Assembly (NCBI RefSeq): GCF_026586625.1
Contig: NZ_JAODIW010000010.1
Coordinates: 62,001-126,000, forward strand
Length of the DNA: 64,000 bases
Reading direction: 5' to 3'
DNA from: Halobium salinum
GTDB lineage: Archaea; Halobacteriota; Halobacteria; Halobacteriales; Haloferacaceae
The notes under the pieces were generated by a model. It searched no databases and had not been told where the DNA came from. It was given only the letters and a program-made list of their open reading frames with translations. The position numbers were made by a program, and so were the translations under genes. This document shows positions 55,801 through 63,839 of this stretch, piece after piece (positions within the stretch are counted from its first letter, which is position 1; each line of letters opens with the position of its first letter).

Positions 55801-56925
55801 TCAGGCCATCCGACCCGCCGTCCGCCCCGTGACGACCCGAGCCGCCCCGTAGCCGCCGACCGCGACGACGACGGCGACGGCGACGACGGCGAACACCGCG
55901 GGCGTGGCGCTTCCGACCGCGAGCCGGGCGGCCGCGTTCGACGGGCCCACCGGCAGCAACGTGGCGCCGCCGAACAGCCCCAGCACGCCGACCGAGTAGA
56001 CGAGTTGGGCGACCTGCCGGTCCGGCGCCGTGAGGGCGACGACCGCGCCGAGTGACGCGACCAGCAGGCCGACGGCCGCCGACAGCAACAGGAGGGCCGG
56101 GAGGTTCGCCACGGGCGTCCCGTTCAGTCGGAGCAGCAGCATCCAGAGCCCGGCCTGCAGGGGGACGAGCCCGGCCGCCGCCGCGAGCTTCCCGTCGACG
56201 ATGCCCGCCAGCGAAATCGGCGCGACCCGCAGGAGTTCGAGCGTGCCGCGGTCGTACTCCTCGGTGATGGAGTCGACCGTCACGGAGCCGGCGATGAACG
56301 CCGGGAGGAAGAGGAGGAGGGGAAGGAGCACGGTGTAGGTGAACCCGAAGTAGGGACTCGACGTCGATTCGGGGGGCAGCGAGAGCGGCTCGAAGTCGAG
56401 GGCCGCCGAGCGCTCCTCGCGTTCGGCGCGCTCGAACTCCCGGAGCGCGTCGCGAAGCGAGACGACGACGACGGTCGACCGGACGCTCTCATCGGGTGCG
56501 ACGGCGGTCACGTGGACCCGCCCGTCCCGCACCGCGGTGTCGAGGACGGCGTCGACGCGGCCCTCTTCGAACGCGAGCGTCGCGCTCCGGCGGTTGGGGT
56601 AGGGCACCGCGTCGATGCCGGACTCCGTGCCCGCCGCGCGCAGGAGGTCGTCGGTCGCCTCACCCGTCACGGCCACGTCGGCCGTGTACCCCTCGACGCT
56701 CCCCGGGTCCGACAGCGAGACGAGGCCGACGACGAGGAAGGAGGAGAAGGAGGCGACGAACAGCTGGATGAGCAGGGCGAGCACGATGGTCTTCTCCGAC
56801 CGGAGCGAGGCGATTTCGCGGCGGGCGACCGTGACCCGGGGGTCGCGGTAGGCGTCGCCGACGGCGTCGCGGGCGGCGGCGAGCCGACCGCGGACGCGCT
56901 CGGTCGCCGAGGGCGACTCAGACAA
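55801..56925 (-). CDS. ABC-2 type permease (NatB-like)
   Basis: A 374-aa ABC-2 membrane protein. One helix (TIVLALLIQLFVASFSSFLV, about 50-69) is followed by a 130-residue extracellular domain and then five helices from about 185 to 365. The motif VTVDSITEEYDRGTLELLRV before the second helix set is typical of NatB/ABC-2 exporters. The gene is last in a three-gene set (ATPase, large permease-protease, this permease); its start overlaps the end of the 650-aa gene by eight bases. Together they would form an exporter, whose substrate is unknown. Confidence 0.85.
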   Translation of the reverse strand: MSESPSATERVRGRLAAARDAVGDAYRDPRVTVARREIASLRSEKTIVLALLIQLFVASFSSFLVVGLVSLSDPGSVEGYTADVAVTGEATDDLLRAAGTESGIDAVPYPNRRSATLAFEEGRVDAVLDTAVRDGRVHVTAVAPDESVRSTVVVVSLRDALREFERAEREERSAALDFEPLSLPPESTSSPYFGFTYTVLLPLLLFLPAFIAGSVTVDSITEEYDRGTLELLRVAPISLAGIVDGKLAAAAGLVPLQAGLWMLLLRLNGTPVANLPALLLLSAAVGLLVASLGAVVALTAPDRQVAQLVYSVGVLGLFGGATLLPVGPSNAAARLAVGSATPAVFAVVAVAVVVAVGGYGAARVVTGRTAGRMA

Positions 56926-58870
56926 GGCCGCTCACCACCGTGGCGACCGCGAGGTTGTACCCCGCGTGCAGCAGCGTCGCGAGGACGAACGCGCCCGCGA
57001 ACGCCTCCCGGCCCCGGCTGGCGCCCGTCGCCGTCGTCGCCGCCGTGACGACGTGGAGCGCGAGCGGCGCGAGCAGGAGCGCCAGTGCGGTCGCCGGCGA
57101 GACGGCGGGGCCGATTCCGGCTCCCGCGGACTCGAAGGCGGCGCGACCGACCGTCAGACTCGGGAGGCCGACCACCTGCACCACGGCGAAGAGTTTCTCG
57201 CCGAGGAAGAAGCCGGTTCCCGAGAGCGCGCCGAGGACGAGCGCCGTCGGGACGGTCCGGGCGAAGCGGGCCTTCGCGAAGCCGGCGTACACGTGGAGGC
57301 TCTTCGCCAACTCCTCGACGGCGGCGATGGCGACGAAGAGGACCGGCAGCGAGAGTTCGAGCGGGAGGACGAACAGCACGGCGACGACGAGCAGTTCGGC
57401 GACGAGGACGAACGGAATCGACAGCGCGGCGAGGGTGAGCATCGACCGCTTCCCCCGAATCCGGGCGTCGAGCGCGTCGAGCGCCTTGAGGGGGACCGCG
57501 CGCTGCGTGAACATGTCCTCCTCGCGGTAGACGCCGACGCCGAGGAGGAAGAGGACGGCGGCACAGCCGACGAACGGGCCGGCCGAGAAGAGGTACTGCC
57601 CCAGCGTCGCGCCGGTGCCCTGGAGGTCCCGGACGACGAGCGTCAGCGGCGAGATGAGCGAGATGGGCGTCACGTCGGCGAACACCGCCGGGACGAACGC
57701 GTAGCTCGTGAGAAACACCGACACCGTCACCGTGAGGAACGTCAGCTCCTTGAAAGACCGCGCGAACATCGCCGCGAGGAACGTCGCCGCGAGGTACAGT
57801 AGCGCGATTGGAACCACCGCGGCGACCGAGAGGGGGCCGCCGCCGACGAGGAGCGCGACGAGCGCCGAGACGGCTGTGAGCCCGAGCACGTAGGGGAGCG
57901 TCTTCCCGGCGACCACCGTCCCGGGGCCGACGGGCGTGACGAGCAGGGGTTCGCCCCGCCGGTTCACGCGTTCGTTGAGGACACTGCCGCCGTACGCCTG
58001 CGCGACGAAGTTCATCGGCACGAGGAAGGCGAAAGCGAGCACGAGCGAGCCGAAGGGGAACGGCGGGCTGATATCCGCCGGCGACCCGGTCGACTCGGTA
58101 CGAAGGACGCCCGAGCCGAGTCCGGGGACCTCGAAGCCGCCGTCGGCACCGGAGTCGGCGGCTGTCCCGCCGCTCTCGGCGTCGTCGGAGTCAGCCGAGC
58201 CCGACGCACCGGAGCTCCCGTCACCACCCGAGTCTCCCGAGGCACCCGGCTCGCCCGCGTCGCTGGAGTCTGACGACGCCTCCGACCCGGAACTCCCGTC
58301 GTCGACCGACCGACCGCCGGCAGAGGCGAGCGTCGGCGCCGAGTCGCGCTCGGCGTACCGGAGCGTGACCAGCACCGGGAACGCCGCTCCCCGGTTCGGC
58401 TCCTCGCCCAGCCGCCGGTCGTTGTAGCGAGCGACCGCGTCCCGGAACGTCGACAGCGCGGCTTGGCCCTTCTGCGAGTCGGCCACGAGCACCGCACCGT
58501 CGCGGACGAGCAGGTCGACGCCGCCCCGGAGTTCACCATCGACGACTTCCGCTTCCGCGGGCGGACGCGCCGCGAGCGCCGACGTGTCCGCGACGGGGTC
58601 GTGGTAGGGGCTGTCGGCGGCGACGCCGACGCGGTAGAGCCCGCTGTCGACGCCGACGCTCCCGACGCCCGAGGCGACCAGCCCGCCGAAGACGCCCCCT
58701 GCGACGAGGAGGACGACTACGGTGACGGCGGCGGTTCGGCGGTCGAACGAGTTCGTCCCCCGGGACACTTCCCAGCGGGCGATGCGCAGGAGGGCGCGGG
58801 TCTCCCGCCGGAGTCGACGGCCGGCGCTTCGGCTCCGACTCCGGAGCCTATCGAGCCGCGAGGTGCTCAC
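56918..58870 (-). CDS. Fusion: ABC-2 permease and PrsW-like intramembrane protease
   Basis: A 650-aa protein. Residues 45-445 have the ABC-2 permease layout: one helix (about 48-70), an extracellular part with a long Ser/Gly/Asp linker (about 189-245), and six helices ending at about 448, with EPLLVTPVGPGTVVAGKTLP near 307. From about 480 a second membrane domain carries the PrsW motifs: AVEELAKSL (EELAK at 519-523), GFFLGEKLF (about 553-561), LHVVTA (about 605) and HAGYN (635-639). PrsW is a membrane metalloprotease that cleaves anti-sigma factors in bacteria. Such a fusion suggests protease-assisted export or processing of the ABC substrate. Confidence 0.8.
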   Translation of the reverse strand: MSTSRLDRLRSRSRSAGRRLRRETRALLRIARWEVSRGTNSFDRRTAAVTVVVLLVAGGVFGGLVASGVGSVGVDSGLYRVGVAADSPYHDPVADTSALAARPPAEAEVVDGELRGGVDLLVRDGAVLVADSQKGQAALSTFRDAVARYNDRRLGEEPNRGAAFPVLVTLRYAERDSAPTLASAGGRSVDDGSSGSEASSDSSDAGEPGASGDSGGDGSSGASGSADSDDAESGGTAADSGADGGFEVPGLGSGVLRTESTGSPADISPPFPFGSLVLAFAFLVPMNFVAQAYGGSVLNERVNRRGEPLLVTPVGPGTVVAGKTLPYVLGLTAVSALVALLVGGGPLSVAAVVPIALLYLAATFLAAMFARSFKELTFLTVTVSVFLTSYAFVPAVFADVTPISLISPLTLVVRDLQGTGATLGQYLFSAGPFVGCAAVLFLLGVGVYREEDMFTQRAVPLKALDALDARIRGKRSMLTLAALSIPFVLVAELLVVAVLFVLPLELSLPVLFVAIAAVEELAKSLHVYAGFAKARFARTVPTALVLGALSGTGFFLGEKLFAVVQVVGLPSLTVGRAAFESAGAGIGPAVSPATALALLLAPLALHVVTAATTATGASRGREAFAGAFVLATLLHAGYNLAVATVVSGLV

Positions 58871-59832
58871 CGACGGGCCTCCGGCGCGTCGGGGGTGTGG
58901 TCCGACGGCGCCCCGTCGGGTGTCCCCCTTTCGGTCTCACCGTCGACCGTCCGCGGGCCGAGCGCGTCGCCGTCGGCGGCGATGTCGAGGAACACCTCCT
59001 CCAGCGAGGGTTCGCGGGTACGGATGTCGTCGACGATCCCGCCGGCGCGTTCGGCGGACTCGCGGACGATTTCGACCGCGTCCATCGACTCGACGACGGC
59101 GCGGTGGCGTTCGCCGGCCGGCGCCGTCTCCGGCGTCGGCACCGTCGTGTAGACGTGGTACTCGGTGATACCGTACTCCTCGCGAATCTCGGGGACGGTA
59201 CCGCGGGCGACGACGGCGCCGCGGTTCATCACCATCACGCGGTCGCAGACGTCCTCGACGTGATAGAGGTTGTGCGCCGAGAAGACGACCGTCTTGCCCG
59301 CCGCGGCGAGTTCCTTCGTGAACTCGAGCACGTAGTTCGTGGTGAGCGGGTCGAGTCCGGAGGCGGGTTCGTCGTAGATGAGCACGTCGGGGTCGTTGAC
59401 GAGCGACCGGGCGATGGCGACCTTTCGTTTCATCCCCTTCGATACGTCGCCGAGGCGGCGGTCCCGGTGTTCGAGTTCGAGGCGGTCGAGCGTGTCGGCG
59501 ACGCGCTCGTCGGCCACCTCGCGGGGCACCTCGTAGAGGTCCGCGAAGAACCGCAGGTAGGAGTGGGCGGTCATGTCCTCGTACAGCGGCGACTCCTCGG
59601 GGAGGAAGCCCAGATGCGAGCGCATCGCGGGGTCGGCGGCGTCGTAGCCGGCGACGGTCGTCTCGCCGCTGGTCGGCTCGACGAGTCCGGCGAGCGTCTT
59701 CAGCGTCGTCGTCTTGCCCGCCCCGTTGGGGCCGACGATGCCGAATATCTCCCCCGGTTCCACGTCGAAACTGCTCCCCCGCACGGCGACGAACTCCCCG
59801 TACACCTTGCGGAGGTCGGTCACGGAAATCAC
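58867..59832 (-). CDS. ABC-2 exporter ATPase (NatA-like)
   Basis: A 321-aa ATPase of the drug/antibiotic/Na+ exporter type. Walker A GPNGAGKTTTLK (about 34-45), the signature VSKGMKRKVAIARSL (about 128-142; the LSGGQ of other ABCs is VSKGM here, typical for this subgroup) and Walker B VLIYDEPASGLDP are present. The C-terminal 60 residues are polar and acidic. A TATA-like cttaacc lies about 27 bases upstream (minus strand, 59855-59861). Its last four bases overlap the permease-protease gene. Confidence 0.9.
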   Translation of the reverse strand: MISVTDLRKVYGEFVAVRGSSFDVEPGEIFGIVGPNGAGKTTTLKTLAGLVEPTSGETTVAGYDAADPAMRSHLGFLPEESPLYEDMTAHSYLRFFADLYEVPREVADERVADTLDRLELEHRDRRLGDVSKGMKRKVAIARSLVNDPDVLIYDEPASGLDPLTTNYVLEFTKELAAAGKTVVFSAHNLYHVEDVCDRVMVMNRGAVVARGTVPEIREEYGITEYHVYTTVPTPETAPAGERHRAVVESMDAVEIVRESAERAGGIVDDIRTREPSLEEVFLDIAADGDALGPRTVDGETERGTPDGAPSDHTPDAPEARR

Positions 59833-62222: not shown

Positions 62223-63839
62223 ATGAGACGCAACCAGCTACTGACGATACTGCTCGTCTGCCTACTCACGGTGCCGACCGTCGCACTGGCGGACACGAGC
62301 GGGAGCCCCGACCTGAGCGCGACCGTCCAGAACGGGACGCTCGCCGCCGGCGGGGAGACACAGTTGACCGTCGTGCTCCAGAACAGCGGCGAGGTGACGG
62401 AGAGCTCCAACCCGCAGTTCAACGCGGAGGTGACGACGGCGAAGGGCGTCAAAGCGACGCTCCAGTCGGACGACGCACCGGTCACGGTGAAGTCCGGGAC
62501 GCAGTCCGCCGGGTCGATTCCGAACGGCGGGCTGGCACAGGTGCCCTTCACCGTCACCGTCGACCAGGACGCCGAGCCGGGGACGTACACGCTCCCGGTG
62601 AAGGTGCGGTACACGTACACGAGTGAGGTGGACCAAGTCGGGCAGAGCCAGTCTGCGCCCACCTACGACTACGACACGGAGACCGAGACCGAGACCCTCA
62701 ACGTGAGAGTCACCATCGAGGACCGTGCGCGCTTCCAGGTCGTGAACGCGAGCACCGACGCCCCCGTCGGCGACCGCGGGCCGGTGTCCGTCGCCATCGA
62801 GAACGTCGGGAGCGAGCCCGCGCGTAACGCGAACGTCGCCATCGAGTCCTCGAACGGCGACTTCACCTTCTCCGGCACGCCCTCCGCCTCCAGCTACGTC
62901 GGTCGCTGGGAGCCCGGGGAGGTCCGCAACGTCACCGTCGAGGGGACGTTCGCGGAGGGCGCCGCGGTGCGGAACTACGCGCTCGGCGCGACGGTGAGCT
63001 ACGAGAACACGAACGGGGCGGCGACGCAGTCCGACCGGCTGAACTTCGGCGTGACGCCGACGGCCGAGCAGTCCTTCGAGGTGGAGAACGTGCAGTCGTC
63101 GCTCCGCGTCGGGAGCGAGGGCGCGCTCGAAGGCGAACTCGTCAACACCGGCGAGACGACGGCACGGAACGTCGTCGTCAGCTTCGACCCCGAGAACGGC
63201 AACGTCAACCCGCTGGAGACGGAGTACGCCGTCGGCAATCTGGCGCCCGGCGAACGCGCGAACTTCTCGTTCGACACCGAAGTGACCGACTCCGCCGACG
63301 CCGGTCCGCGACTGTTCTCGCTCGACGTGCGCTACCGCAACGCCGCGGGCGAGCGGCGTGAAGGCGAGTCGCTGGACGTGAGCGCGGCCGTCGAACCCGC
63401 GCGCAAGAAGTTCCTCCTGCAGGGGGTCAACGCCTCCTTCGAACCCGGCGAGAACGGCGAGTTGCTCGTCGAGTTGACCAACAACGACGACGAGACCGTC
63501 CGCGACGTGTCGGCGAAGCTGTTCGTCGACGCGCCGATAACGAGTTCGAACAGCGAGGCGTTCGTCTCCGAGCTCGGCCCCGGCGAGACGACGACGCTGA
63601 AGTTCGGCGCCGGCGTCGCCGGCGACGCCCTCGCCGGGAAGACCTACCCGGTGAGCATGGACTTCCGCTACGAGACGCCCGACGGGGACGCGCGAATCTC
63701 CGAGACGTACCAGGTACCGGTGCAGGTGACCGAACCCGAGGACGACGGTGGCTTCCTCGACGCCTACGGGCTGATCGTCGGCGGCGGGCTCCTGCTCATG
63801 GTCGTCGGCGGGGTCGTCCTCTACTTCCGGAGAGAGTAG
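62223..63839 (+). CDS. COG1361-like exported beta-domain protein
   Basis: A 538-aa protein with a signal sequence (LLTILLVCLLTVPTVALA, about 6-23), repeated beta-sandwich domains of the S-layer/NEW3 type (LSATVQNGTLAAGGETQLTV, VNASTDAPVGDRGPVSVAI, and VLQGVNASFEPGENGELLVEL-like blocks) and a C-terminal membrane helix (LIVGGGLLLMVVGGVVLYF, near 515-535). It ends directly before the RND permease gene. Such proteins accompany RND transporters in haloarchaea, presumably as an extracellular partner. Confidence 0.8.
   Translation: MRRNQLLTILLVCLLTVPTVALADTSGSPDLSATVQNGTLAAGGETQLTVVLQNSGEVTESSNPQFNAEVTTAKGVKATLQSDDAPVTVKSGTQSAGSIPNGGLAQVPFTVTVDQDAEPGTYTLPVKVRYTYTSEVDQVGQSQSAPTYDYDTETETETLNVRVTIEDRARFQVVNASTDAPVGDRGPVSVAIENVGSEPARNANVAIESSNGDFTFSGTPSASSYVGRWEPGEVRNVTVEGTFAEGAAVRNYALGATVSYENTNGAATQSDRLNFGVTPTAEQSFEVENVQSSLRVGSEGALEGELVNTGETTARNVVVSFDPENGNVNPLETEYAVGNLAPGERANFSFDTEVTDSADAGPRLFSLDVRYRNAAGERREGESLDVSAAVEPARKKFLLQGVNASFEPGENGELLVELTNNDDETVRDVSAKLFVDAPITSSNSEAFVSELGPGETTTLKFGAGVAGDALAGKTYPVSMDFRYETPDGDARISETYQVPVQVTEPEDDGGFLDAYGLIVGGGLLLMVVGGVVLYFRRE

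Follow-up and report, generated by a model that had tools for sequence, protein, structure and literature searches.

An archaeal ABC-2 exporter operon in which one permease is fused to a PrsW-type intramembrane protease domain

Results

Organization of the operon

The stretch of DNA analyzed here (the window, 64,000 nucleotides from Halobium salinum) belongs to a haloarchaeal genome of 4.46 Mb. Open reading frame (ORF) calls at 55801-59832 place three overlapping genes on its minus strand, encoding an ATP-binding cassette (ABC) ATPase, a protein that joins a permease to a PrsW-type intramembrane protease domain, and a second permease. The ATPase gene (58867-59832, minus strand) starts with GTG and specifies a NatA/DrrA-like protein of 321 amino acids (aa) that matches Pfam ABC_tran at 1e-30. 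Its Walker A (GPNGAGKT), signature (SKGM), Walker B (VLIYDEP) and H-loop (SAH) motifs are all kept in 60/60 haloarchaeal orthologues. The middle gene (56918-58870, minus strand) encodes the 650-aa fusion, an ABC-2 permease half followed by the protease domain, which is delineated by its ORF and by full-length homologues. The last gene (55801-56925, minus strand; TTG start) encodes another ABC-2 permease of 374 aa, whose match to PF12698 (1.3e-14) is over the cut-off. With a cognate ATPase carrying Walker A, Walker B and signature motifs in the same operon, the locus has the composition of an ABC-2 exporter. Because the ATPase and fusion genes overlap by 4 nucleotides, and the fusion and second permease genes by 8, translational coupling of the three genes is suggested. 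An earlier interpretation of this DNA, made without database searches (the sequence-only reading), had described an ATPase-permease-permease operon with the fusion as its middle gene, and the ORF coordinates agree with it exactly.

Identity of the C-terminal domain

We assigned residues 475-650 of the fusion (56921-57448, minus strand) to a PrsW-type intramembrane protease domain on the basis of PF13367, profile-profile alignment (hhalign) and AlphaFold prediction. In a profile search of the genome, PF13367 matched residues ~479-646 with 29.8 bits against a cut-off of 23.5 (E 8.6e-7). The window domain passes this gathering cut-off, and some of its relatives score under it. Plain hmmscan against Pfam gave no PrsW match, whether the query was the full protein or its C-terminal piece. 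We also trained a PrsW hidden Markov model (HMM) on 24 stand-alone PrsWs from the phylum. With default settings it recognized the C-terminal piece (E 1.6e-5), but the full protein was recovered only once the bias filter had been switched off (4e-4); the best of 200 shuffles searched with this model and --max reached E 0.31. The full protein was thus missed by the plain search because of HMMER filters and not because the domain is absent. When 67 fused domains were compared with the 24 stand-alone PrsWs by hhalign, the match scored 97.5% with E 6e-12, and the EExxK, FxxxE, H and HxxxN motifs of both sets were aligned with each other. In control comparisons, ten CPBP proteases from the window genome scored 3.4% and the partner permease 0.1%. 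Cumulatively, these results bear out the PrsW-like domain that had been proposed from about residue 480. A domain search of residues 450-650, set beforehand as the test able to refute that proposal, found the PrsW match; plain hmmscan missed it, and taken by itself that outcome would have counted as a refutation.

CPBP identity was ruled out by the E instead of H in motif 2, by EExxK instead of EExxxR and by the hhalign value of 3.4%. The CPBP comparison set carries H where the fused domains have E558 of motif 2, and PF02517 (CPBP/CAAX) did not match at the fusion locus in the profile search of the genome. Chance or an annotation artefact was also ruled out, as the catalytic set is found in 80/80 named relatives; moreover, 0/100,000 shuffles of the window domain matched the family motif pattern. 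A sequence search of solved structures with the protein and both profiles found nothing. We are highly confident that the ABC-2 exporter carries a fused PrsW-type domain, which is probably active.

Catalytic motifs and their constraint

The PrsW motif definition includes an extra transmembrane (TM) histidine that is absent from CAAX proteases (PMC4602095). The window domain possesses EExxK in a TM helix, FxxxE, this extra histidine and HxxxD/N, and the residues named in the sequence-only reading (EELAK at 519-523, GE at 557-558, H606 and HAGYN at 635-639) are present where it had put them. Motif 1, EELAK (519-523; 57302-57316, minus strand), lies in helix 2 of the domain, and its E519, E520 and K523 are found in 67/67 fused domains. 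Motif 2 consists of F554-xxx-E558-K559 (57194-57211, minus strand), with E558 and K559 in 67/67 and F554 in 66/67, the remaining domain having Y. The position of K559 is N in 15/17 stand-alone PrsWs, so that K is diagnostic of the fused clade. Motif 3 is the intramembrane H606 (57053-57055, minus strand; 67/67), which is preceded by L here versus G in most stand-alone PrsWs. Motif 4, H635-AGY-N639 (56954-56968, minus strand), has its H in 67/67, followed by N in 62 domains and D in 5.

The sole invariant columns over the 67 domains (E, E, K, E, K, H and H) are the PrsW catalytic set plus K559. E519, E520, K523, E558, H606 and H635 are likewise invariant in 40/40 proteins sampled across the phylum. 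These 40 proteins have 20 fully invariant positions, and 6 of the 8 PrsW motif positions are among them (hypergeometric P 1e-8). All of the 80 named haloarchaeal relatives keep the catalytic residues and 78 match the family pattern; the two off-pattern relatives have a long loop insert and retain every catalytic residue. Long insertions in the loop joining the first two catalytic helices were observed in Halorubrum xinjiangense (L133) and in a Halobacteriales metagenome-assembled genome (L124). Conservation of the catalytic residues across the phylum argues for an active enzyme, and the domain is apparently catalytically competent as judged from its sequence.

AlphaFold predicted five TM helices for the domain (475-499, 504-532, 540-571, 592-618 and 621-649), and residues 455-650 folded alone gave a predicted local distance difference test (pLDDT) score of 92.4. 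The predicted helix limits would put E519/E520, E558, H606 and H635 near mid-membrane.

The permease half

Residues 1-454 (57509-58870, minus strand) constitute the permease half, as indicated by AlphaFold helices, Foldseek and a sub-threshold PF12698 match. The prediction comprises an amphipathic N-terminal helix, TM1 (44-66), an extracellular domain (68-272) and TM2-TM6 (273-447), after which a short cytosolic linker leads into the five helices of the protease domain. Loop charges agree with this topology. The mean pLDDT of the full-length fusion is 78.6, with the protease part mostly > 90. The extracellular loop contains an Asp/Ser/Gly-rich low-complexity insert (residues ~176-262; 58085-58345, minus strand), and pLDDT < 50 across 170-205 and 209-269 marks this acidic insert as disordered. 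In Foldseek, the top match of the permease half was the ABC-2-type mycobacterial efflux pump 8k1n (E 0.012, prob 0.99), with NosFY weaker. Together with the predicted helix pattern, the 8k1n match gives the half a six-TM ABC-2 permease fold. The earlier claim of a full ABC-2 permease half is thus backed by gene context, AlphaFold and Foldseek, whereas the Pfam match itself (PF12698, 24.2 bits, residues 274-444) is below the cut-off of 31.6.

Distribution, locus conservation and origin

The survey covered one archaeal phylum, plus plasmids. Other fusions, which the sequence-only reading had advised looking for, proved to be widespread: full-length homologues occur in 147/171 genomes of the host family and across the phylum. 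The protease domain was found in 287/394 genomes of the class (66/86 genera), and its profile matches 148/295 sampled phylum genomes, with full-length versions in many families outside the class. As mcrA is present in 13/26 genomes tested, methanogens carry the fusion; several mcrA-negative families carry it too. A plasmid search for the exact fusion yielded one match, which is haloarchaeal. In one genome (G260, L042:5779-7621) the fusion gene is broken over three frames in the permease half with the protease half intact, so that either the copy is broken or the sequence contains an error.

ATPase, fusion and second permease genes stand together in 135/141 loci, and the second permease is on the strand of the fusion in 135/135 complete loci. 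All three genes point one way in haloarchaea, and the ATPase gene is divergent in 25/26 loci outside haloarchaea. The triad is kept although ATPase orientation is rearranged, indicating that the three genes stay together despite operon rearrangement. Beyond the triad, the neighbour comparison found no conserved gene of any kind (the largest neighbour cluster covers 10/61 loci), including any halocin-like gene and the nearby small secreted peptides that the sequence-only reading had advised looking for.

A tree built from 41 fused and 30 stand-alone domains, with the root untested, separated the two groups completely at a branch whose support is 100/100. This separate clade and the invariant catalytic columns suggest, at the sequence level, one old fusion, passed on mainly by vertical inheritance while selection acted to preserve catalysis.

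Other genes in the window and the genome

At 62223-63839 of the window, ~2.4 kb past the ATPase gene, lies a gene whose 538-aa product begins like a signal peptide, contains CARDB/NEW3-type repeats and has a TM helix at its C-terminus; in relatives it was not found next to the operon. The genome also contains a stand-alone PrsW (C13, L064:3998-7249; 145 bits to PF13367) that only a small ORF separates from a neighbouring DUF402 (RNase W-like) gene. In Haloferax volcanii, RNase W is HVO_0406 (PMC11602121), and the PrsW-like protein HVO_0408 is near it by locus number, which suggests that a PrsW/RNase W neighbourhood is conserved. HVO_0408 was considered as a counterpart of the fusion and rejected: it is numbered near RNase W, just as the ordinary PrsW of the window genome adjoins the DUF402 gene. 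PF02517 has 14 matches in this genome, and two CPBP protease genes are in tandem at C13:163949-165249.

Discussion

A possible coupling of intramembrane cleavage to export

The operon, the identity of the domain, the conservation of its catalytic residues and the conserved linkage are established at the level of sequence. That the domain cuts, what it cuts and that the pieces are exported are steps we infer, largely by analogy. We envisage a heteromeric ABC-2 exporter with one ATPase and two different permease subunits, the first of which bears a covalently attached, apparently competent PrsW-type glutamic intramembrane protease. The protease may cut hydrophobic TM segments inside the bilayer, with left-over signal peptides, lipoprotein signal peptides and small or orphan membrane proteins as candidate substrates. 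The exporter would then use ATP to expel the fragments from the membrane or from the cell, and coupling through the fusion would stop cut peptides from building up. One machine could in this way do the work of Eep/RasP (S2P-type) and the separate EcsAB/PptAB of Firmicutes. Linear peptides that stem from lipoprotein signal sequences are lost in eep mutants and in ecsAB mutants alike (PMC7157817), and in B. subtilis ecs mutants RasP intramembrane proteolysis is impaired, for which a "cleaning function" of Ecs has been proposed (PMC2996298). By this analogy, hydrophobic peptides may be cleaved within the membrane and, in a coupled step driven by ATP, exported or cleared from the membrane; we regard this as a serious possibility that falls a little short of an even chance. 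The wider proposal of a phylum-wide archaeal machine that would cleave TM peptides and clear them from the membrane in a single ATP-coupled reaction is offered more tentatively.

Several points weigh against coupled cleavage and export. The operon does not co-encode a substrate, and none has been described; 24/171 family genomes lack the fusion, which is thus not essential everywhere; and Foldseek of the isolated protease domain against PDB gave no significant match. The partner of Ecs is an S2P metalloprotease and not PrsW. PrsW, for its part, is best known for site-1 cleavage of a regulator (PMC4602095). The lack of a dedicated partner gene beside the operon, on the other hand, would suit a general substrate. 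The sequence-only reading had proposed cleavage of the exported peptide or of a regulator during transport. The former is plausible and close to the coupling preferred here, but the lack of any shared neighbour gene beyond the triad speaks against a dedicated precursor of bacteriocin type and against a dedicated regulator.

Cleavage of a regulator is retained as a rival. In a signalling role, the transporter half would sense a compound or flux and activate the protease, which would then cleave a membrane-tethered regulator as PrsW does RsiW in B. subtilis. Regulated site-1 cleavage of this kind, linked to antimicrobial peptide resistance, is the best known role of PrsW (PMC4602095), and ABC permeases act as sensors for the BraS/GraS kinases (PMC5854430). 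However, regulator genes are not conserved next to the operon. To our knowledge, archaea are without sigma and anti-sigma factors, so that RsiW would have no direct archaeal counterpart; we consider signalling unlikely, if still credible. The tie of PrsW to antimicrobial peptide resistance (PMC4602095) can also be read as defence or detoxification, with membrane-active peptides such as halocins or other foreign hydrophobic compounds being cut and expelled, and the resemblance of the permease fold to drug efflux (8k1n) fits such a role. Yet the fusion is mostly single-copy over a phylum of very different lifestyles, unlike most defence genes, and a halocin-like gene near the operon is not conserved, making defence quite improbable.

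Two further explanations assign the domain to the exporter or its clients. It might be a non-catalytic scaffold that stabilizes or regulates the exporter, like the APH-1 subunit: the Abi-domain relatives SpdC and Abx1 work by histidine kinase binding (PMC5854430), and APH-1 is among the weak fold matches of the domain (APH-1B, rank 17 in Foldseek, E 4.2, non-significant and not used as evidence for its identity). But some loss of catalytic residues would be expected of scaffold versions, and all are invariant phylum-wide, so a scaffold has little probability. Alternatively, the domain might have a sortase-like role and process the partner permease, the linker of its own chain or secreted proteins delivered by the exporter, as the CAAX/CPBP-family protease myxosortase sorts MYXO-CTERM proteins (PMC11980579). 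Against such maturation, no conserved cleavage motif or partner was found and the fused ORF stays intact across the phylum; it seems very improbable.

If coupled cleavage and export is correct, archaea would have a route, not previously known there, to clear signal-peptide remnants or to make secreted peptides. The fusion bears on how hydrophobic products of intramembrane proteases are handed over and on how archaea clear spent signal peptides. Because the joint is covalent and the active site untouched over a whole phylum, haloarchaea amenable to genetics offer a direct test of whether intramembrane cleavage and ABC export are linked. The fusion further represents a protease family overlooked by standard annotation; the Haladaptatus copy, the one annotated record checked, is an "ABC transporter permease subunit" in RefSeq.

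Comparison with known systems

In full-text literature, with subscription papers outside the scope, we found no earlier description of an archaeal PrsW/ABC fusion. The archaeal PrsW version matches no named family and appears undescribed; fusion of a permease to an intramembrane protease is already catalogued as a kind (NCBIfam NF041647, permease/CPBP). This bacterial model describes a single chain of ~640 aa with both a permease and a glutamic intramembrane protease, a likeness drawn from model name and length, and its protease is CPBP whereas that of the archaeal fusion is PrsW. Membership of the fusion in NF041647 was rejected, with no match at E up to 1 (cut-off 435 bits). Nothing in the genome exceeded this cut-off, and the 374-aa partner permease matched the N-terminal half of the model weakly, with 29 of 435 bits.

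Compared with the PrsW family (PF13367; B. subtilis PrsW, the stand-alone HVO_0408 of H. volcanii), the fused domain shares EExxK, FxxxE, the TM histidine and HxxxN/D in the same order, with roughly similar spacing and the profile match given above. By contrast, it is joined to an ABC-2 permease, forms its own clade, is near or below Pfam detection, and differs in motif 2 (EK for EN) and motif 3 (LH for GH). EcsAB/PptAB with Eep/RasP resemble the proposed activity of the fusion in that an ABC exporter is tied functionally to an intramembrane protease. They are separate proteins of Firmicutes with an S2P-type protease, and the resemblance is by proposed function alone. With NatAB-like ABC-2 exporters, the archaeal operon shares the NatA/DrrA-like ATPase and ABC2_membrane_3 permeases, but it differs from them in having two different permeases, one of which carries a protease.

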